DNA of 64,000 nt from NCBI RefSeq assembly GCF_013416325.1, contig NZ_JACCGK010000006.1:1-64000 (forward strand), read 5' to 3'. Position numbers and translations under genes: made by a program. The notes beneath the pieces were generated by a model. That model was not told the DNA's origin, did not search any database, and worked only from the letters and a program-made list of their open reading frames with translations. Numbering within the stretch: the stretch's first letter is position 1; every line of letters begins with the position of its first letter. Source of the stretch: Vreelandella sedimenti. Lineage in GTDB: Bacteria; Pseudomonadota; Gammaproteobacteria; Pseudomonadales; Halomonadaceae. This document shows positions 1-9,487 of the stretch, piece by piece.

Positions 1-435
1 CTGAGGTACTATGAGAAATCCAGGCTAGCAAGCTTAATACCAAATGATTCAAAACTAAATGCCCATGTCTATGTCAGCGCGCGTCAAGCAGGTTTTATAC
101 AGGAAGGGCAAGAGGTGTTAATTCGGCACGCTGCTTATCCTTATCAAAAATTTGGGGTAACAAGAGGAAGCGTTGCGTCAGTTGCAATGACACCCTATGC
201 AGCTCAAGAGCTTCCCGCCCATGTTGCTAGTACGTTGCAGCAAGAGATAGCTGATGTTTCCAGTTTGTTTTACCAAGTGGCAGTTAACTTGGATTCTCAG
301 TATGTATCTGTATATGGAAAACCTCGGCAATTGCAGGTCGGGATGTTGTTTGAAGCGGATATTCTTCAGGACAAGCGTCGGCTTTATGAGTGGGTATTAG
401 AGCCGATTTACTCGGTTCTTGGGAAAAGTGGTTAG
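1..435 (+). CDS. HlyD/CvaA-type membrane fusion protein, C-terminal part
   Basis: The reading frame is open from the first base of the window and ends at a TAG at 433-435, so this is the last 144 residues of a longer protein. The visible part has the end of a lipoyl/barrel-sandwich region (QEGQEV followed by IRHAAYPYQKFG) and the beta-barrel/C-terminal region typical of HlyD-family periplasmic adaptors of peptide exporters (CvaA-like, usually about 400 residues). Such adaptors join a C39-type ABC exporter in the inner membrane to TolC. The matching exporter with C39 domain lies downstream at 5578-7677. A 37-base gap separates it from the M16 peptidase gene, consistent with one transcript. The family call is good; the precise partner is inferred from context. 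Confidence 0.8.
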   Translation: MRYYEKSRLASLIPNDSKLNAHVYVSARQAGFIQEGQEVLIRHAAYPYQKFGVTRGSVASVAMTPYAAQELPAHVASTLQQEIADVSSLFYQVAVNLDSQYVSVYGKPRQLQVGMLFEADILQDKRRLYEWVLEPIYSVLGKSG

Positions 436-472
436 TGGTCAATTTTAATTAAATTAGAGACTAGTAATAAGT

Positions 473-3205
473 ATGCGGATAAAGACAGCATTTTGCTATG
501 CAATAATTAATAAGCTGGCGGTAGCATTAATGCTATGTATATTGGCGGGCAATGCCAATGGTCATGATGCAAAGCTCGTTGGCGTTGGAAATGATATTTC
601 CGCTTACCAGTTTGACAATGGATTGAAAATTCTGCTGGCTCCTAGTGCTAGTAATTCCATTTTTCTAAATGTTATTTACCAGGTTGGCTCTTTGGCCGAC
701 CCACAAGGGCAAAGCGGTACTGCGCACCTGCTGGAGCATCTAATGTTCAAGGGAACAGAGACGCACCCAGGAGAGCAGTGGGTTAATGCGCTTAGAGAAC
801 GTAGTTTAGCCTTTAATGCTACCACTAGTTTTGATCGTACGCGTTATACCACAGTACTCGAATCTAACCCCAACCAGTTGGATGCGCTGTTGGCCTTGGA
901 GGCTGAGCGCATGACAAGTCTGTCTTTTAACCAGACCGCCTTGGCCTCAGAAATAGAGGTTGTATCGAGAGAACGAGAAGCCTCGCAAGAGGAGCCTTTT
1001 AACATACTAATCGATCAGATGTTTGCGGCAGCGACTCCAGGAGCTGGGTTCGGGAGGCAAGTATTGGGGCAGCCAGATGAACTAGAACGTATGACTGAAG
1101 AGAGTATCAGGCAGTTTCATGACCGTTACTATCGCCCTGATCGCGCATTTATTGTTATTACCGGTGGTTTTGAAGAAGAAACGGCTTTAAATGCGTTGGA
1201 GAACCATTTTGCCAAACTTGAACCTCCCTCGCTGCTGGATCGTGTTCCATTGGATTTGCCCAACATTGAGGGGCCAGTAACAGTTGAAGCGTATCAGGGA
1301 AGCGTCGCAAGTATTGTGCTGGGATACCCCCTGCCACCTGCTCAAGACGAAAGGCATTGGTCACTCTCCGTATTGGCGGATATATATGCTGGTGAGCCTC
1401 ACGGCTCTCTTTACCAAGCGCTAGTGATGCCTGGTGATGCGCAGGGTGTGTTCGCAACGTACCTGCCTTTTGCCCAAGGCGGTTATTTTTTATTTGGAGC
1501 AACAGCGCCTCCAGAGCAGTCGCTGGAAGCGCTAGCTGAACAGTTACAAAACGCCGTGGTCACTTCCGGCCATGAGGCGATCAACGAAGAAAGCTTAAAG
1601 CGAGCATTGCGTGTAGAAAAGCAAACATTGGAGCACTTAACCAGTAGCCCCGAGATGCTCGCTGAGTATCTATCCGAGGCCGTTGTGCTGGGCGATTGGC
1701 AGCAATTGCTTTTGGGTTGGGATAGTTTGCCCGAGCGAACAGTAGAAGAGGTGCAGCGCCAAGCAGAGAATTTCTTAGTTGCTGAGCGCCAAATAGAGGG
1801 GCTGTTGCGTCCTGGCAATAAAAGAACAAATGATGTTGCTAATATTGCTAATGCAGTAATTTCCCAGCAGGAACAGGTTCATGAGCCCATTGAGCTGCCT
1901 CAACCACCCGAGATTGGCTTGGAAGGTGCGAGCCAGACAATACGTGATATAGAGCAGAGTATTGAGCGTCGCTTGATGTCTAATGGTATGCAAGTAGCGC
2001 TGCTGCCACGAAATGAGAGCGATCGCATTCAGGGAGTGATGACGCTGCACTTTGGTAACACCGCTAGTTTAAGAGGACAGCATGCCGTTACAGATATTCT
2101 AGGCACGCAGTTAATACGTGGCACGCAGTCTGCGAGCTACCAAGAAGTGGTTGACCAGATCAATCAACTGGGGGCAAGTGTATCAATCATACCCAATGGC
2201 GGCGTGCTAAAGATCCGTTTTGAAAGCCCCACGGAAAGCATAGAGACATTTCTGGGGCTATTGGCTGACATCTTGAAAACCCCTGCGCTGAGCCAGCATG
2301 AGTTCGATCTTGTCAAACGACAGCTACTTAACGCTGCGCAAACAATTGACCAGCGACCAGTGCAAGTAGCCCGCCGTGCGCTTAGGCACTATACCGACTC
2401 ACCGCTCGAGCACGATGATATCCGTCGCCGACTGATGCACGAAGCCATGCAGGCGGCGATAGAAGCCACCACATTGAGTGATATTCGTGAGTTCCATGAA
2501 ACTTTTTACGGTGCAGATCATGGCAAACTTGCCATCGTGGGGGACGTTGACTCAAATGCAATATTGACTCACTTAGAAACGCTGTTTGGCGATTGGAATA
2601 GTCAAGTCGCGCATGAGCGCCCGGTACGCCTTTATACCGACATGGAGCCTACGAGCCTGAATGTAGAGGCTGGCGGCACCGCTACGGGACATTACTTGAG
2701 GCGCTTTTATTTCCCCCTGACGATGGATTCTGAAGATGCTGTGCCCCTATTGGTGGCAACCCACATTTTAGGGGGCGACCCACTGAATTCCCGGTTGGGG
2801 CGTCGGATAAGAGAGCAGGAGGGGATGACTTACAACACCAGAGCGTCAGCACATATCGTGTCGCATGGGGATGCGAGCCGGATAACGATTCAGAGCCACT
2901 ATCCAAAATCTGAAAAAGAACCATTTTTGGAAATAGTCAGAGATGAAGTAGACCGCTTTATAAAAGATGGGGTAACGCAACAGGAAGTGGAGTGGAGCAA
3001 AGCGACTCTTTTGCAGGGTGTTGGTGCAGCGCTGGATGATGATAATACGTTGGTTAACCTGCTACATCGGCAGCTTGAAAGAGGAATAACAATTGATCAA
3101 ATGATCGAACATAGGAGGGACTTGTCAAAAGTGACAGATAAGCAAGTAAGCGAGGTGGTTGAACATTACTTTAGTGTGTTGTTTTCTGAGGTTATTGCCG
3201 ATTAG
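473..3205 (+). CDS. Secreted M16-family zinc metallopeptidase
   Basis: This 910-residue protein has the two-lobed architecture of M16 (pitrilysin/PqqL/processing-peptidase) enzymes. An N-terminal signal peptide ends near residue 30 (LAVALMLCILAGNANG), so it should act in the periplasm. The inverted zinc motif HxxEH is intact at H85-E88-H89 (GTAHLLEHLMFKG), and a glutamate-rich stretch near residues 160-170 supplies the third ligand. The second half (from about residue 480) is a non-catalytic M16C-like lobe with the usual SRLGRRIREQEGMTY region. It lies between a peptide-export adaptor and a double-glycine peptide gene. It may therefore process, degrade or detoxify the peptide, but housekeeping proteolysis cannot be excluded. 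Enzyme class is certain, role is inference. Confidence 0.88.
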   Translation: MRIKTAFCYAIINKLAVALMLCILAGNANGHDAKLVGVGNDISAYQFDNGLKILLAPSASNSIFLNVIYQVGSLADPQGQSGTAHLLEHLMFKGTETHPGEQWVNALRERSLAFNATTSFDRTRYTTVLESNPNQLDALLALEAERMTSLSFNQTALASEIEVVSREREASQEEPFNILIDQMFAAATPGAGFGRQVLGQPDELERMTEESIRQFHDRYYRPDRAFIVITGGFEEETALNALENHFAKLEPPSLLDRVPLDLPNIEGPVTVEAYQGSVASIVLGYPLPPAQDERHWSLSVLADIYAGEPHGSLYQALVMPGDAQGVFATYLPFAQGGYFLFGATAPPEQSLEALAEQLQNAVVTSGHEAINEESLKRALRVEKQTLEHLTSSPEMLAEYLSEAVVLGDWQQLLLGWDSLPERTVEEVQRQAENFLVAERQIEGLLRPGNKRTNDVANIANAVISQQEQVHEPIELPQPPEIGLEGASQTIRDIEQSIERRLMSNGMQVALLPRNESDRIQGVMTLHFGNTASLRGQHAVTDILGTQLIRGTQSASYQEVVDQINQLGASVSIIPNGGVLKIRFESPTESIETFLGLLADILKTPALSQHEFDLVKRQLLNAAQTIDQRPVQVARRALRHYTDSPLEHDDIRRRLMHEAMQAAIEATTLSDIREFHETFYGADHGKLAIVGDVDSNAILTHLETLFGDWNSQVAHERPVRLYTDMEPTSLNVEAGGTATGHYLRRFYFPLTMDSEDAVPLLVATHILGGDPLNSRLGRRIREQEGMTYNTRASAHIVSHGDASRITIQSHYPKSEKEPFLEIVRDEVDRFIKDGVTQQEVEWSKATLLQGVGAALDDDNTLVNLLHRQLERGITIDQMIEHRRDLSKVTDKQVSEVVEHYFSVLFSEVIAD

Positions 3206-3257
3206 ATAAAATTCAAAAAATAGTATTTGTATTTCCTGTATTTAATATATTTTAAAC

Positions 3258-3710
3258 ATGACCAAGGTTGGGCCAGTTATGAGACTTTATAGTAGTGTTT
3301 TTTTCAATGTAAATTGTTTTATATGCGGAGTTTCTGTGTTGTTTGTTTTTTTAAACAAAGGTCTTAATTTTTCTGAGATTGCTTTTGTTGTTGTTGACTT
3401 GATAATGTCAATTTCTTTGTCTTTTGTTTCTTTAAGTCTTGTGGCTATTTTTTTTTATTGTGCTGGTTGCATTGGAGAACCAAATTATATGAGGAAAGTG
3501 AAAACTTCAAAAAGTATGAGTTTTCAGTCAGTTGGTTTTGGCTTAATGCTTATGATTATTGGGGTCGGAATAATTCTAATTATTCCAAACACATTTGGTG
3601 AAACATACACCTCTATCACGCAAGGAGTTTTATTTATATCTTTTGGGTTGCTTACACTTAGCGTAAGTATTTTTAGTTTTACTAAAGGGCAAAGAGATGA
3701 GAGAACTTAA
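3258..3710 (+). CDS. Small four-helix membrane protein, candidate immunity protein
   Basis: I do not recognise this 150-residue protein. It has four hydrophobic stretches (about residues 9-32, 40-68, 90-112 and 118-140) with short loops, and no signal for secretion beyond them. It is strongly AT-rich with many TTT/TTA codons, unlike the flanking housekeeping genes. Its stop overlaps the start of the double-glycine peptide gene by 14 bases, a translational-coupling arrangement. Small multi-spanning membrane proteins paired this way with class II bacteriocins and microcins are commonly immunity proteins; that role is inferred from position only. The start is uncertain: ATG 3258 and ATG 3279 both lack a strong Shine-Dalgarno. 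Confidence 0.6.
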   Translation: MTKVGPVMRLYSSVFFNVNCFICGVSVLFVFLNKGLNFSEIAFVVVDLIMSISLSFVSLSLVAIFFYCAGCIGEPNYMRKVKTSKSMSFQSVGFGLMLMIIGVGIILIIPNTFGETYTSITQGVLFISFGLLTLSVSIFSFTKGQRDERT

Positions 3711-4014
3711 TCTTTATGAAATGGAGCTTGTTGGTGGTGGAGCTGATAGTGCTTCAGAAGCAGCAGCTACTGGTGTCGGTGGTTTAGCGGGTGGGAAGAT
3801 TGGTGGGGCTATAGGAGGGGCGGCTGGATCAAGAGCAGGAGGTGTGGCTGGTAGTCGTTTCGGGCCTCCTGGTGTTATTGCAGGAACCGTGATAGGTCAA
3901 AGAGTAGGCGAATTCATGGGCACTGGCATCGGTGCAGGTCTCGGGGGATATGCTATGTCAAAAGCTTTTGACTCTGATGGAACCGATTATTGTGGAGACG
4001 GCACTGACTATTAA
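3697..4014 (+). CDS. Double-glycine-leader, glycine-zipper microcin-like precursor peptide
   Basis: The product is 105 residues. The N-terminus MRELNLYEMELVGGG matches the double-glycine leader consensus LSxxELxxIxGG position by position (L4, N5, E8, M9, V12, G14-G15), so cleavage after G15 would leave a 90-residue peptide. The mature part is a glycine zipper with repeated GxxxG (GGLAGG, GGAIGGAAG, GGVAG, GAGLGG), as in microcin V and related pore-forming bacteriocins. It ends in a polar tail with a duplicated DGTDY motif around a single cysteine. Neighbours are an overlapping membrane protein upstream and a JmjC oxygenase plus C39 exporter downstream. Precursor status is well supported. Antibacterial activity is inference; a structural glycine-zipper protein is the alternative, but the perfect leader and exporter argue against it. 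Confidence 0.8.
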   Translation: MRELNLYEMELVGGGADSASEAAATGVGGLAGGKIGGAIGGAAGSRAGGVAGSRFGPPGVIAGTVIGQRVGEFMGTGIGAGLGGYAMSKAFDSDGTDYCGDGTDY

Positions 4015-4070
4015 AATATTGGTATTTTATAGATATTAAGTGTTTTTTTATTCATTACTTATAATGTTTC

Positions 4071-4114
4071 CATGGCGATAGATGTTTTATCGCCATGAGT
4101 TGGGTGGGTTTTTT
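4071..4114 (+). terminator. Hairpin terminator after the peptide gene
   Basis: A perfect 10-bp inverted repeat (CATGGCGATA at 4071-4080, TATCGCCATG at 4088-4097, 7-base loop) is followed after 11 bases by six T (4109-4114). The T tract is displaced from the stem, so termination may be partial. It sits between the peptide gene and the JmjC/exporter genes. Confidence 0.6.
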
Positions 4115-4362
4115 AGATTAGATAAAGTAATGAAAATAACTTTAGAATTTTTATGCTGAGCTTGTTTTGGTTTTATAATTATACGCTGATTATAGTTGAG
4201 TCTTCTATAATTTCGCATGATTTTATAAGCGTTTTTAGAGGGGTGGAGGTGATGGCGAGACATTTTTTAGGACTGATTTTTCTCCTTGGTATGCCTGCAA
4301 GAAATGCGTTAGGTGTGTTTTAAATTATAATATTTTACTCAACAGAAAGTGAGGAATGTTGA
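4115..4362. other. AT-rich intergenic region upstream of the JmjC gene
   Basis: No convincing gene is present in this stretch between the hairpin and the JmjC start. It is very AT-rich and probably carries a promoter for the JmjC-exporter pair, since the preceding hairpin would reduce read-through. It contains GAGG eight bases before ATG 4363, the ribosome binding site for the JmjC gene. A 23-codon frame (4252-4323) is present but not annotated as a gene. Confidence 0.4.
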
Positions 4363-5511
4363 ATGAAAATTGACTTCTGTTTTAACAAGGAGGATTTTTT
4401 TAATGAATATTTGTATAAAAATCCATGCTTATTTAAAAGAGCAATAAACGATATTGATCTCACTTGGAGTGATGTCAACGAAATATATGAGAGAGCGGAT
4501 GCATCAGATAGAACGTTTAAATTAATGAATGGGTATGAGGTTCCAAAAAAGGAATATTTAGAATCATATATGAATGTAGGTAGATTGGAAACTCGTTATA
4601 TAAAGCCTGTGATCTACGATTACATGAGAAAAGGTGCTACTCTCGTTTATAATAGGATTCAAAACGAACCTAAGATAGGTGAATTGGTGTATCAGATTGC
4701 AAATTATGCAGGTGCACAGACGATTACTAGTGGTTACGCTGCTTTTAGCTCAAAGTCATCCTATAAAAGTCATTGGGACACAAGGGATGTTTTTGCAGTA
4801 CAGCTTCTTGGTAGAAAGCGCTGGATACTAAAGGCTCCTAGTTTCGATCTTCCTTTGTATATGCACCAAGCAAAAGATATGCCTTACATCGATGAGCCCG
4901 AAGAAGTCTATATGGATATAGTCATTGAACCAGGTGATATATTATATATACCAAGGGGATGGTGGCATAATCCCATCCCTGTAGGAGAGGAAACTTTTCA
5001 TCTAGCTGTGGGTACATTTGCGCCAACTGGGTTTGATTTTTTAAAGTGGTTAATGAATTGCATGCCAGAAATAGAAGCCTGTCGCAAAAATTTTCATAAT
5101 TACGAGAATGATAAAGAAAATCTAATTGCTATTAAAAATTCAATTAGTGATTTCCTAGATGATAAGAGTATTTATGAAAGCTTTATGTGTGACTATTTAG
5201 GCCAACAAAGAGTTGATTCTAAACTTTCGCTGGATGTGTTCGGAAATAATGAAGTCGGAGTTCTAAGTGAATCACAAAAAATAAAAGTTAACGCAAATAC
5301 ATTGCCCTTTTTCTCTGAAGGCTTTGTAGTGATTAATGGAAATAAAGTTAATATTGATAGTGTAAGTGGTAATCTTATTAAAAGCGTTTTTGATAAAGGT
5401 TTGTGCACAGTTGGTGACGTTGTGGAAAAATTTGACGGAAACTCTAAAAGTAAGATAAATACTTTGCTCTTTGAGCTTGGTATAAATGACGTTATCGAAC
5501 TTGTTGATTGA
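4363..5511 (+). CDS. JmjC/cupin-type Fe(II)/2-oxoglutarate oxygenase
   Basis: This 382-residue protein contains a JmjC (cupin_4) core. The iron triad is visible as H137-x-D139 (SHWDTRDVFAVQLLGRKRW) and H202 (IPRGWWHNPIPV). RKRW around residues 151-154 and the preceding Gly/Tyr-rich strand are typical of the ribosomal-oxygenase branch (YcfD/RoxA-like). Residues from about 310 to the end form a small winged-helix-like domain (NGNKVNIDSVSG, GLCTVGDVVEKFDG), which in this family assists dimerisation or substrate binding. Related enzymes hydroxylate protein side chains. The gene is AT-rich and sits between a double-glycine peptide and its exporter, so I infer a peptide-tailoring role. The alternative is hydroxylation of a cellular protein unrelated to the peptide. 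Confidence 0.82.
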   Translation: MKIDFCFNKEDFFNEYLYKNPCLFKRAINDIDLTWSDVNEIYERADASDRTFKLMNGYEVPKKEYLESYMNVGRLETRYIKPVIYDYMRKGATLVYNRIQNEPKIGELVYQIANYAGAQTITSGYAAFSSKSSYKSHWDTRDVFAVQLLGRKRWILKAPSFDLPLYMHQAKDMPYIDEPEEVYMDIVIEPGDILYIPRGWWHNPIPVGEETFHLAVGTFAPTGFDFLKWLMNCMPEIEACRKNFHNYENDKENLIAIKNSISDFLDDKSIYESFMCDYLGQQRVDSKLSLDVFGNNEVGVLSESQKIKVNANTLPFFSEGFVVINGNKVNIDSVSGNLIKSVFDKGLCTVGDVVEKFDGNSKSKINTLLFELGINDVIELVD

Positions 5512-5524
5512 TGTTTTAAAGTAG

Positions 5525-5549
5525 AGGCTGGTTTTTTAGCTAGCCTTTT
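5525..5549 (+). terminator. Weak hairpin between JmjC and exporter genes
   Basis: AGGCT at 5525-5529 can pair with AGCCT at 5542-5546, followed by TTTT. The stem is only five to six pairs, so this is at most an attenuating structure within the JmjC-exporter operon. Confidence 0.3.
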
Positions 5550-5577
5550 AATATGAATTATCTATTATTTGTTTTGA

Positions 5578-7677
5578 ATGAAATTAATACTCCAGTCTGA
5601 GAGCCAAGAGTGTAGTTTGGCTTGTCTTGCAATGATTTCTAGCTATCATGGCTTGCACCATGATCTTATAAGCCTGAGGAGAAGGTTCTCCATCTCTCTT
5701 AAAGGCGCAAATCTTTCGCAATTAATTAAGTATTCACATGATTTGAATTTCTCTTCCCGTTCTTTGAGACTGGATCTTGGCGAAATTAAAAATTTAAGAT
5801 GTCCTTGTATTTTACATTGGGACATGAATCACTTTGTAGTTCTCAAGAAAGTCGTTAACAATGTGCTGCATTTACTGGATCCTGCTGTGGGGGCTCGTAA
5901 GGTTACCGTCGATGATGCATCCCCACACTTTACAGGTGTAGCTTTAGAGTTAGTCCCAAACGCTGGCTTTGTTCCAGCAAAGTTAAAGCCTAAAATTCGG
6001 CTACGAGATTTAGTTGGTAGAGCTGTAGGTTTCAAACGAGCACTAATCAATATTTTTGCTATTGCAGTTACGATTGAAATAGTTTCTTTATTAAGTCCTC
6101 AAGTTACTCAGTGGGTAGTGGATGGGGCTTTAGTGTCAGCTGACTATGATCTACTGTTGTTGGCTGTTTTAGGTGGCGGGCTGCTTTTAATAATTGATTT
6201 TTTTCTTAAAATGGCTCGTGGATGGATGGGCCTACGCTTAAATCAGCAGCTGTCTTTACAATGGTCTTCTAACTTGATGCGGCATCTAGTAACTTTACCT
6301 TGGCCTTTCTTTGAACGGCGGCATTTGGGGGATATTACATCAAGATTTCAGTCTCTTTCAGCTATTCGTCAAGTTTTTGCGAATGGTGCTATCATGATCG
6401 TTTTAGATGGGTTAGTGGCAATGATTACTTTTGGTATGATGTTGTTATATAGCCATTTTTTAACGATGATTGTGGTGGTGGCGCTTGCTTTATACATGGT
6501 TTTGAGAGTCGCATTTTATCAACCATTGCGTAATGCTTCAGAGGAAAGAATTATCTTATCGTCAAGAGAGAATGCCTATTTTCTTGAAACTTTAAGAGCA
6601 ATAGTTCCTTTGAAATTATTTAATCACTCATCTATACGATTGTCCAATTGGCAAAATATGATGGCTGATGTACAGAATAGAGATGTTACTACTCAAAAAA
6701 TTCTTTTGGCATTTGCAAGTCTAAATACATTGATATTTGGTTTGGAAAGTATGTTTTTACTTTACTGGGGTGGCGTTTCAGTATTGGAGGGATCGCTTTC
6801 GCTCGGTATGCTACTAGCTTTCATTGCCTATAAGAGTCAATTCACCACGCGTGCCAGTCAGTTGATTGATATGGGATTGGAAATAAAGATGCTTTCTTTA
6901 CATGCGGAGCGTTTGGCCGATATAGCACTTGAAGCGCCTGAAGAAGAGCCTGTAGCCGAAACTGACTTGTATCGTTTAGAGCCTAAGATAGAGTTTCGAG
7001 AAGTATCCTACCGTTACGCTGAGGGCGAACCATGGGTTTTGAAAAATATTTCTTTTATTATTGATGCGGGCGATTCTGTTGCGATTGTCGGACGTTCTGG
7101 CTCGGGAAAAAGTACACTATTTAAACTTGTATTAGGCCTTTTGAAGCCTACTGAGGGAGAAATTCTTGTAGGGGGCATCTCCACACGTCAGTTAGGAGCC
7201 AAGGCTGTACGTGAACTAATCGGGGCCGTCATGCAAGAAGACCAGCTAATGGCTGGATCATTAGCTGAAAATATTGCTTGTTTCGATCCTGAAGAAAATC
7301 AAGAGCATATAGAAAAAGCTGCTAATATAGCGCATATTCATAAAACTATTATTAATATGCCAATGGGTTATCAAACCCTTGTTGCCGAAATGGGCGGTGG
7401 TTTGTCAGGAGGTCAAAAGCAGAGGATCCTTCTAGCCAGAGCGCTTTACAAAAATCCCAGTATTCTAGCTTTGGATGAAGCAACTAGTCATCTCGACCTT
7501 CATAGCGAACAGCACGTCGTCCAAGCGCTGAACATTGCTAAAATGACAAGAATAACCATCGCGCACCGGCGCGAAACCGTGGCGTTTGCAAAGAGGATAA
7601 TTGCAATGCATAAAGGAGCAATCGTAGAAGATATCCGTATTGAAGATGAACAGGGTTTGCTAAAAGAGTCTCATTAA
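5578..7677 (+). CDS. Peptidase-containing (C39) ABC peptide exporter, CvaB-like
   Basis: The 699-residue length is standard for peptidase-containing ABC transporters. The N-terminal C39 peptidase is intact: Q6, catalytic C12 (SQECSLACL), H85 (DMNHFVVL) and D101 (LLDPA). It should remove double-glycine leaders during export. The transmembrane domain spans about residues 150-440. The ATPase follows with Walker A G505-T513 (GRSGSGKST), signature LSGGQ at 609-613, and Walker B with D633-E634 (LALDEA). It forms a dimer in the inner membrane and needs an adaptor, provided by the HlyD-type gene at the start of the window, plus TolC. The obvious cargo is the peptide at 3697-4014. The ATG at 5578 lacks a clear ribosome binding site. 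Confidence 0.92.
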   Translation: MKLILQSESQECSLACLAMISSYHGLHHDLISLRRRFSISLKGANLSQLIKYSHDLNFSSRSLRLDLGEIKNLRCPCILHWDMNHFVVLKKVVNNVLHLLDPAVGARKVTVDDASPHFTGVALELVPNAGFVPAKLKPKIRLRDLVGRAVGFKRALINIFAIAVTIEIVSLLSPQVTQWVVDGALVSADYDLLLLAVLGGGLLLIIDFFLKMARGWMGLRLNQQLSLQWSSNLMRHLVTLPWPFFERRHLGDITSRFQSLSAIRQVFANGAIMIVLDGLVAMITFGMMLLYSHFLTMIVVVALALYMVLRVAFYQPLRNASEERIILSSRENAYFLETLRAIVPLKLFNHSSIRLSNWQNMMADVQNRDVTTQKILLAFASLNTLIFGLESMFLLYWGGVSVLEGSLSLGMLLAFIAYKSQFTTRASQLIDMGLEIKMLSLHAERLADIALEAPEEEPVAETDLYRLEPKIEFREVSYRYAEGEPWVLKNISFIIDAGDSVAIVGRSGSGKSTLFKLVLGLLKPTEGEILVGGISTRQLGAKAVRELIGAVMQEDQLMAGSLAENIACFDPEENQEHIEKAANIAHIHKTIINMPMGYQTLVAEMGGGLSGGQKQRILLARALYKNPSILALDEATSHLDLHSEQHVVQALNIAKMTRITIAHRRETVAFAKRIIAMHKGAIVEDIRIEDEQGLLKESH

Positions 7678-7941
7678 AAATAGATGATTGGTTGAGATTG
7701 GTTTATTGAAGTTCCGATAGTCCAGGTTGCGTAGTTCACTTAATCCACTTGTATTGAGATGGTAACTCTTCTATATCGTGCTTATGAATTTATTTTTTAA
7801 CTTTTGTAAATAGTTTAATCGCGTGTTGTATTTTAGAGATTACATATGAGCTAGGTTCTCAGTATAACTGTTGACCGGCTAGTTTATCTTTGGTAGGACA
7901 GAATGCTTCAAAACCTAGCAACGTTTAACCGAGGGAATTTT
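7678..7941. other. Intergenic region without recognisable gene
   Basis: I see no coding frame with a convincing start, no strong terminator and no repeat here. It separates the exporter gene from the frameshifted small gene and probably carries the promoter of the latter. Confidence 0.4.
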
Positions 7942-8212
7942 ATGGACGGCTTTTTTGAAGAGATAGGCAGGGGGGGGGGTTAGGGGAATAGGTTACATAC
8001 TGGCAGAGATATTCTTCAGAACAATTTGTTACTGGGTTGGCTGGCCAATCTGCAAGCTAGTTACTTTGGGAAAATATCCTTCGGCTTCTAAAGTGATATA
8101 TCTCGATGAGCATAGGAGTCGAGCCGACGGCGCTTTGTGTGCAGTAGTGGGTTTGCTTGCGTTGATTGTGTTGGCTCTGTATCTGTTAGGACAGTTTTCG
8201 TACAAAGCTTAG
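7942..8212 (+). pseudogene. Small membrane protein gene broken by a frameshift in a run of ten G
   Basis: ATG 7942 is preceded by GAGGG at a good distance and starts MDGFFEEIGRGG, but the frame stops at 7981-7983 just after ten consecutive G (7970-7979). If the run had nine G (or twelve), the frame would continue to the TAG at 8210-8212, giving about 89 residues. That product would contain YILAEIFFRTICYWVGWP, CKLVTLGKYPS and a C-terminal helix ALCAVVGLLALIVLALYLLG. The downstream frame is clearly protein-like and resembles small conserved gammaproteobacterial membrane proteins of unknown function. Three explanations fit: phase-variable gene, recent pseudogene, or sequencing error in the homopolymer. 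Confidence 0.75.
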
Positions 8213-8216
8213 TAAA

Positions 8217-8247
8217 CCGGGTGCCGCCCACACACCCGGCTGTTTTT
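8217..8247 (+). terminator. Rho-independent terminator
   Basis: CCGGGTG (8217-8223) pairs with CACCCGG (8233-8239), followed by C-T-G and five T (8243-8247). It lies between the small frameshifted gene and the convergent MFS gene and ends transcription of the plus-strand unit. Confidence 0.8.
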
Positions 8248-8260
8248 ATGCTCTATATCC

Positions 8261-9487
<1,227 letters not shown>

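Follow-up and report, generated by a model that had tools for sequence, protein, structure and literature searches.

Organization of a microcin-type locus in Vreelandella sedimenti

The window, by which we mean the whole 64,000-nucleotide stretch of the Vreelandella sedimenti genome analysed here, opens with a run of forward-strand genes encoding, in this order, the end of an HlyD-type adaptor, an M16 metallopeptidase, a protein with four predicted transmembrane segments (four-TM protein), a microcin precursor, a JmjC oxygenase and a peptidase-containing ABC transporter (PCAT) with a C39 domain (Table 1). A first-pass annotation of the same DNA had listed these elements on one strand, and all of them were found at their places. 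We consider it probable (about 0.7) that they form a modified class II microcin-type locus, in which the JmjC enzyme would hydroxylate the tail of the precursor before C39-dependent export and the four-TM protein would confer immunity.

The precursor begins with the double-glycine leader MRELNLYEMELVGGG, followed by a core of 90 residues (8.23 kDa) containing 27 Gly. The core has 17 GxxxG steps against a shuffle mean of 7.6, and none of 2000 shuffles reached as many, in agreement with the double-glycine leader and glycine-zipper core described in the first-pass annotation. The C terminus of the precursor is DSDGTDYCGDGTDY. The exporter exceeds the Pfam cut-offs for Peptidase_C39, ABC_membrane and ABC_tran and has Cys12, the His of NHFVV and the Asp of LLDPA, which we take to be its catalytic residues, so that the annotated C39 exporter appears intact. 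A double-glycine leader, a core below 10 kDa, a C39-ABC exporter and an HlyD-type adaptor, the last split over two contigs, are thus all present, as in class II microcins. The cluster is not a chance assembly because other species carry the same gene set. Among named relatives, the nearest one found is Vreelandella olivaria TC10, in which the JmjC protein is 89%, the exporter 93% and the precursor 37% identical.

Table 1. Features at the start of the window
Feature	Position	Strand	Basis or remark
Adaptor-like sequence	1..30		Probably not genomic
HlyD-type periplasmic adaptor, C-terminal part	31..435	+	Family match
Two-unit M16 metallopeptidase	473..3205	+	Family match; recurrent, not universal in such loci
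Four-TM protein, candidate immunity protein	3279..3710 (alternative start 3258)	+	TM segments counted with a simple hydropathy criterion
Microcin precursor	3697..4014	+	Double-glycine leader (3697-3741) and 90-residue Gly-rich core
Tail motif DSDGTDYCGDGTDY, predicted JmjC substrate	3970..4011	+	
JmjC (ribosomal-oxygenase type) Fe(II)/2-oxoglutarate oxygenase	4363..5511	+	Intact H137-x-D139...H202
JmjC C-terminal winged-helix domain, residues 289-382	5227..5508	+	Strand/helix order like that of a RiPP recognition element; candidate leader-binding domain
C39-peptidase-containing ABC exporter (PCAT)	5578..7677	+	Pfam domains

The JmjC enzyme and its predicted fold

The JmjC protein scored 96.6 bits against Pfam JmjC_2 (cut-off 22). 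H137, D139 and H202 were invariant and K152 nearly invariant among 45 aligned sequences, which bears out the intact iron triad noted earlier. The best sequence matches in the PDB were NO66, YcfD and MINA53. A structure model with a predicted local distance difference test score (pLDDT) of 93.1 and a predicted template-modelling score (pTM) of 0.90 could be superimposed over its whole length (residues 1-382) on the YcfD-like structure 4csw (Z 21.6; root-mean-square deviation (rmsd) 4.8 for 343 aligned residues) and matched E. coli YcfD (4lit) with Z 21.1. The protein therefore models as a ribosomal-oxygenase (YcfD/NO66) fold made of JmjC, helical and winged-helix parts. It probably hydroxylates a protein substrate in a 2-oxoglutarate-dependent manner. 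YcfD, NO66 and MINA53 share this whole-length fold and the metal triad at about 15% identity, and their named substrates are ribosomal proteins.

The C-terminal domain, modelled separately (pLDDT 85.6), matched parts of MibB (Z 9.3, rmsd 2.1, 86 aligned), TigE (9.0), TbtB (8.9) and NisB (8.5), which we take to be their RiPP recognition elements (RREs; RiPP, ribosomally synthesized and post-translationally modified peptide), with scores barely exceeding those of the winged helices of MINA53 (8.0) and NO66 (7.1) and of an unrelated winged helix, that of GATOR1-KICSTOR (8.1). MccB was a further match at Z 7.5; PqqD was dropped as a notable match because 5sxy reached only Z 6.9. Foldseek returned nothing for this domain at E 0.001 or better, the best hit being NO66 at 0.065. 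The secondary structure of the domain model (E18-21, E33-36, E39-42, H45-57, H62-68, H74-86) follows the strand-strand-strand-helix-helix-helix order by which the winged-helix RRE is defined (PMC12710340, in the accessible part of its text; here and below, statements about papers cited by PMC number refer to such parts). According to the same source, some JmjC (PF08007) proteins bear RRE-like domains, and bacterial homologues occur in RiPP-like contexts. The RRE-like fold together with these published domains makes it plausible that the modelled C-terminal domain binds the precursor leader.

A short tail motif accompanies the JmjC gene

Precursors adjoining a JmjC gene carry a terminal motif of roughly two DG[TNS][DN]Y repeats, or DGDG. 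Beyond the window, such tails were observed in V. olivaria (DGNDYCGDGTDY), Acinetobacter guillouiae (DGNDYCRDGGNY), Oceanospirillum (SGTDYADGTDY), Psychrobacter glacincola (DGSGYGDGCDY) and Neisseria dentiae (DGNNYDGTDY), and the precursor of an Acinetobacter baumannii plasmid ends in GNDYCEDGGNY. The motif can also sit at the N-terminal end of the core, as in Moraxella (ATDQSGNNYGDS and the like), where one locus (L037) has four motif peptides next to a single JmjC gene. A second JmjC group, from Methylomonas, A. pittii, A. venetianus, Pandoraea and Variovorax, is accompanied by EDGDG, DDGDG or DADGDGY at or near the C terminus.

For counting, we used loci with a JmjC identity of at least 32% plus locus L140, and peptides with an ATG start, the leader pattern and a Shine-Dalgarno-like site, in which the motif lay within 16 residues of the C terminus or 24 of the core start. 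Described in this way, the motif was present in 40 of the 52 leader peptides at JmjC loci, compared with a mean of 3.66 and a maximum of 11 in 2000 shuffles, and in 31 of 35 JmjC loci. At exporters lacking a JmjC gene, it was found in one of 14 peptides and one of 11 loci (L155). The ribosome-site rule had taken 8 of 60 peptides out of the JmjC-positive count and 10 of 24 out of the JmjC-negative count; without it, the counts became 43/60 and 1/24, respectively. L140 had been fetched via its exporter before its JmjC gene was known, and it has both the JmjC gene and the motif. Clustering of the cores by BLAST was not used because low complexity put 45 of the 52 peptides into one group.

A Burkholderia locus (L031, 8703-10155) and a Herbaspirillum locus (L033, 8758-10155) also combine a motif precursor with a JmjC gene; the L031 precursor starts with TTG and stands outside the 52 because the rule demands ATG. 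No C39 exporter was detected in their fetched flanks of about 9 kb, and export may proceed through a gene elsewhere. In a tree of 71 JmjC rows, the motif type followed the enzyme with one change for motif A, one for R and two for B, where the labels had been assigned by eye and 31 of the 71 rows were unlabelled. The observation that the motif tracks the JmjC protein strengthens the interpretation of the enzyme as a tailoring enzyme acting on the precursor.

Co-occurrence of the JmjC gene with the exporter

We compared 86 JmjC rows, comprising the window, 79 loci from a scan of named genomes, one viral contig, three plasmid loci and two genome stretches. The scan loci were retained from the best 80 of 127 stretches encoding relatives and were fetched with flanks of up to 9 kb; L001-L006, L010 and L011 were excluded, being short or duplicate copies or, in the case of L002, a second JmjC-like site of the window's own genome (35% over 91 residues). 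Of the 26 rows with at least 42% JmjC identity, 23 had a C39 exporter; the proportion was 2 of 8 at 37-41%, 11 of 24 at 30-36% and 1 of 28 for identities under 30%. Two rows (L008 and L030) come from the single species N. gonorrhoeae. The three near rows without the exporter are a decayed locus (L012) and two loci that stop at a contig end (L027 and L037). The first-pass annotation had proposed to look for homologues of the JmjC gene, the peptide and the exporter together. The expected association held for near homologues, which do not occur mostly without peptide or exporter, and was lost among the distant ones. The decayed L012 (9182-10621), from genome G050 of the same family, retains JmjC residues 1-91, an exporter remnant and a partial four-TM match, and its precursor still terminates in DGTDYGDGTSY. 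In another locus (L100, genome G159), the exporter match contains one internal TGA.

Searches starting from genomes rather than from the JmjC protein gave the following picture. Within the family, a near exporter was present in 8 of 275 genomes, three of which had a JmjC match, and a JmjC match was found in 5 of the 275, including the window's own genome, one fragment and one relative of 27% identity. Among 45 fetched control exporter loci, made up of five JmjC-free exporter genomes of the family and 40 exporter places of an order-wide sample, a JmjC gene occurred at one (L140); five of the 45 stretches were shorter than 12 kb, owing to contig ends or to the stretch requested, and a JmjC gene farther out would escape there. 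The order-wide samples of 390 genomes contained a JmjC match in two, both among the 39 having this exporter. The class-wide sample gave one match in 369 genomes, namely the window's own, and a sample of the G490 family, in which no genome is known to match, gave none in 137. Viral contigs yielded one distant relative at 24%, and a prophage origin was discarded.

Acidobacterial relatives

Six acidobacterial JmjC relatives of 25-27% identity (L078, L079, L080, L083, L086 and L088) lie about 0.6 kb or less downstream of open reading frames (ORFs) with repeated DSDGTD or DADGTD. These unrelated ORFs are without a microcin-type leader, and no C39 exporter was detected in the fetched flanks. Across the 86 rows, DG[TSN][DN] occurred in 25 of 787 near ORFs (40-190 residues long, no more than 1.6 kb from the JmjC gene and on its strand) compared with 5 of 4766 distant ORFs (either strand, more than 3 kb away), and two or more copies in 11 near ORFs compared with none of the distant ones, in a comparison framed after the ORFs had been seen. 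The acidobacterial ORFs possibly represent a separate family of peptides modified at multiple sites.

Contig edge, M16 peptidase and base composition

The first base of the window is the first base of contig C53 of a 5.06-Mb genome. The adaptor-like sequence of 28-30 bp found there recurs at the start of contig C9 without a mismatch and of C28 with two, and lies beside an N inside C2. The ten residues with which ORF 1 begins are probably artefactual. The annotated adaptor end is indeed the C-terminal part of an HlyD-type protein, which is cut by the contig end; the rest of the protein, its N-terminal part, finds its match where contig C32 begins.

The M16 peptidase was found in 7 of the 26 near JmjC loci (excluding L022, where it is 9.4 kb away) and in four Methylomonas loci, and at 3 of the 45 exporter control loci, including the JmjC-bearing L140. 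The two-unit form recurs at JmjC microcin loci of Marinomonas, Nitrincola and Methylomonas. Being present in a subset only, M16 was discarded as a general component and is better described as recurrent than as defining; a role in proteolytic immunity or processing is a guess. The search for a Fur box in window positions 1-9000 gave a best match of 14/19 to the consensus, which was equalled elsewhere in the window, and the candidate was dropped.

The G+C content of the locus genes is 0.31-0.51, with 0.31 for the four-TM gene and 0.34 for the JmjC gene, compared with 0.55 in positions 8261-64000, and the locus was therefore probably acquired horizontally. An idle or decayed passenger that was brought in by such a transfer and makes no product, for which this base composition, the rarity of the JmjC gene in the family and the decayed sister copy L012 could be cited, is very improbable given the complete reading frames inside the window, the intact catalytic residues and the contrast between conserved JmjC protein and exporter and a divergent precursor in V. 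olivaria, which is the usual pattern of working toxin loci.

Comparison with known systems

Microcin V (CvaC, Cvi, CvaA, CvaB) resembles the window in leader type, Gly-rich core, HlyD-type adaptor and C39 exporter. Cvi-type immunity genes stand next to their microcin precursor, and an immunity-like ORF beside the precursor is common to both systems; the microcin V locus is not known to have a JmjC gene. Class IIb siderophore microcins have a Ser-rich C terminus and siderophore-attachment genes in their locus. The window tail contains a single Ser in 14 residues, and no siderophore-attachment gene was found among the six proteins of positions 1-7677, to which the family scan was limited.

The first-pass annotation knew of no described microcin with such an enzyme. 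This claim fails for Mcc17978 of A. baumannii ATCC 17978, the mcaABCD locus of which contains the 'cupin-like' mcaB, reported as an immunity protein (PMC10333792). This locus and the window have in common a double-glycine-type leader, a cupin-like/JmjC gene, HlyD and a C39 exporter. The mcaABCD gene order also occurs on an A. baumannii plasmid, the JmjC protein of which is 57% identical to that of the window; McaB of ATCC 17978 is presumably the same as this plasmid protein. The window differs in gene order and has the M16 peptidase and the four-TM protein in addition, and is therefore termed Mcc17978-like rather than a member. The partnership of a JmjC gene with a microcin is thus already known in one published microcin, with another role assigned: the accessible text on Mcc17978 treats the cupin gene as an immunity gene and does not settle whether the microcin is modified (PMC10333792).

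Moraxella catarrhalis McbABCI, encoded on plasmid pLQ510, is like the window in HlyD, C39 exporter and double-glycine peptide, and has a separate immunity gene, mcbI (PMC2761928). The McbC peptide differs in lacking the tail motif. In the pLQ510 record (L009), a JmjC gene upstream of mcbA (39-1120) looks interrupted; the word 'cupin' does not occur in the accessible text of the mcb paper (PMC2761928). In Mcc1229, encoded on E. coli p0.1229_3, the cupin-domain gene mctC, related to JmjC, adjoins the ABC exporter gene; mctC was needed for activity and the mctDE region gave immunity (PMC8853679). MctC is 25% identical to the window JmjC over part of the protein, and MctA has neither a double-glycine leader nor such a tail.

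Outside microcins, the JmjC-type PbsQ hydroxylates ornithine in a RiPP precursor (PMC12257519), and a heading presents BipG, likewise from the biphenomycin RiPPs, as a hydroxylase of ornithine (PMC12707348). As predicted for the window protein, these JmjC/cupin enzymes have a ribosomally made precursor peptide as their substrate. They differ in that ornithine lies in a macrocycle-forming motif, and neither a microcin leader nor a C39 exporter nor a DGTD tail is mentioned in the accessible texts. For class II microcins, the only modifications described are disulphides or an attached siderophore (PMC13174018). In the titles and abstract openings retrieved from open-licence PMC text, which excludes subscription papers and most preprints, we found neither a JmjC-modified class II microcin nor the DG[TN][DN]Y motif. 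JmjC tailoring, the tail motif and the spread of the motif were not found in print and are new relative to the literature searched.

Immunity and possible alternative roles of the JmjC protein

The four-TM ORF overlaps the start of the precursor by 14 bases, and the encoded protein is the likely candidate for the immunity factor. It shows only weak similarity to the four-TM protein of L020 (24% over 126 residues). An ORF of 45-200 residues with at least two transmembrane segments abuts 24 of the 40 motif peptides, compared with 26 of 1410 random positions, which suggests that immunity is often supplied by dedicated membrane proteins and that the JmjC protein is free for another function. On the A. 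baumannii plasmid (L007), an unannotated two-TM ORF of 76 residues (7456-7686), without a clear ribosome site, lies immediately upstream of the precursor as a candidate immunity gene.

Several observations weigh against tailoring of the precursor by the JmjC enzyme. The motif patterns were composed after the peptides had been inspected, and the counts therefore describe the association and do not test it. The motif is missing from 12 of the 52 peptides and from four of the 35 loci (L009, L026, L008 and L030). The JmjC gene of L009 is apparently interrupted in that record, and L026 is motif-less without explanation. The two N. gonorrhoeae loci, L008 and L030, have leader peptides without the motif; a motif-bearing ORF overlaps one of these peptides in another frame, and the precursor thus looks broken. 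Two acidobacterial rows (L081 and L084) and most other rows below 30% identity had no motif ORF. The precursor scored 26.6 bits against Pfam MccV (PF17508), just under the cut-off of 27, and plain membership of the MccV family was therefore not assigned. The narrow lead of the RRE matches and the Foldseek result for the C-terminal domain belong here as well, as do the 16 of 40 motif peptides that have no adjacent ORF with at least two transmembrane segments under the rule used.

The most direct objection comes from Mcc17978, where plasmid-borne mcaB alone shielded an A. baumannii deletion mutant from the microcin (PMC10333792), an effect not expected of a pure tailoring enzyme. The JmjC protein could accordingly be an immunity factor that binds or modifies the peptide or a cell component, a role that the first-pass annotation had not considered and that would also agree with the location of near JmjC homologues mostly in microcin-type loci and with the motif peptides lacking a membrane-protein neighbour. 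We regard this as unlikely. More than half of the motif peptides do have such a neighbour, the A. baumannii plasmid also has its two-TM ORF, albeit without a clear ribosome site, and a single JmjC gene serves four motif peptides in L037. Moreover, the six acidobacterial relatives accompany DGTD-repeat ORFs with C39 undetected, and in Mcc1229 activity required mctC and immunity was conferred by the mctDE region (PMC8853679). Tailoring and protection could be reconciled if an over-produced JmjC protein binds or alters the incoming peptide; in the accessible text, the Mcc17978 deletion strain was unaffected by wild-type levels of the microcin (PMC10333792).

Alternatively, the JmjC enzyme might modify the exporter, the target or a ribosomal protein, as ribosomal proteins are the substrates of those enzymes of known structure that are closest to it in sequence and fold, and the tail could then serve as an unmodified recognition tag for receptor docking or export. 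This explanation is quite unlikely, because a pure docking motif needs no JmjC neighbour, and the pairing of motif and JmjC gene holds across many genera, at two loci with no exporter detected and in Acidobacteria.

A model for JmjC-dependent tailoring

The tailoring of a class II-type microcin by its JmjC neighbour thus remains our preferred interpretation, and the corresponding proposal of the first-pass annotation is retained, with the precursor as the most likely JmjC substrate prior to export. On the computed gene content, intact catalytic residues, predicted fold, co-occurrence and motif-enzyme linkage, we infer hydroxylation, its target residue, leader binding, immunity and antibacterial activity as follows. 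The precursor would be made with its double-glycine leader and be held by the JmjC enzyme, perhaps through the RRE-like C-terminal winged helix. The enzyme would then hydroxylate the terminal DG[TNS][DN]Y repeats in the cytoplasm, most likely on Asp or Asn, since D/N and G recur across the motif types and most DGDG- and DGTD-type motifs lack Tyr. The C39 domain would cleave after GG, and the peptide would be exported through an ABC/HlyD/TolC-type channel. It would enter a susceptible neighbour through an outer-membrane receptor, and the overlapping four-TM protein would protect the producer.

A more speculative extension, which we find unlikely, is that in a widespread family of JmjC-tailored peptides beta-hydroxy-Asp or -Asn made by the JmjC enzyme in the DG[TN][DN]Y/DGDG repeats creates an iron-binding, siderophore-like tail. 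Such a genetically encoded tail might let the peptide enter via iron-siderophore receptors without an attached siderophore, and the acidobacterial DGTD ORFs might represent multi-site versions of this chemistry. This idea fits with Mcc17978, which enters via the receptors Fiu/PiuA (PMC10333792).

If JmjC-dependent tailoring is correct, a hydroxylation step directed at a defined short motif would constitute a new tailoring class for class II microcins, and the fold of ribosomal-protein hydroxylases would have been recruited for peptide warfare. The combination of a JmjC gene with terminal DGxxY repeats would offer a simple sequence handle for further finds. The orphan cupin gene in the bacteriocin-type loci of Acinetobacter, Moraxella and Neisseria would also gain a possible function, and its assignment to immunity would come into question.

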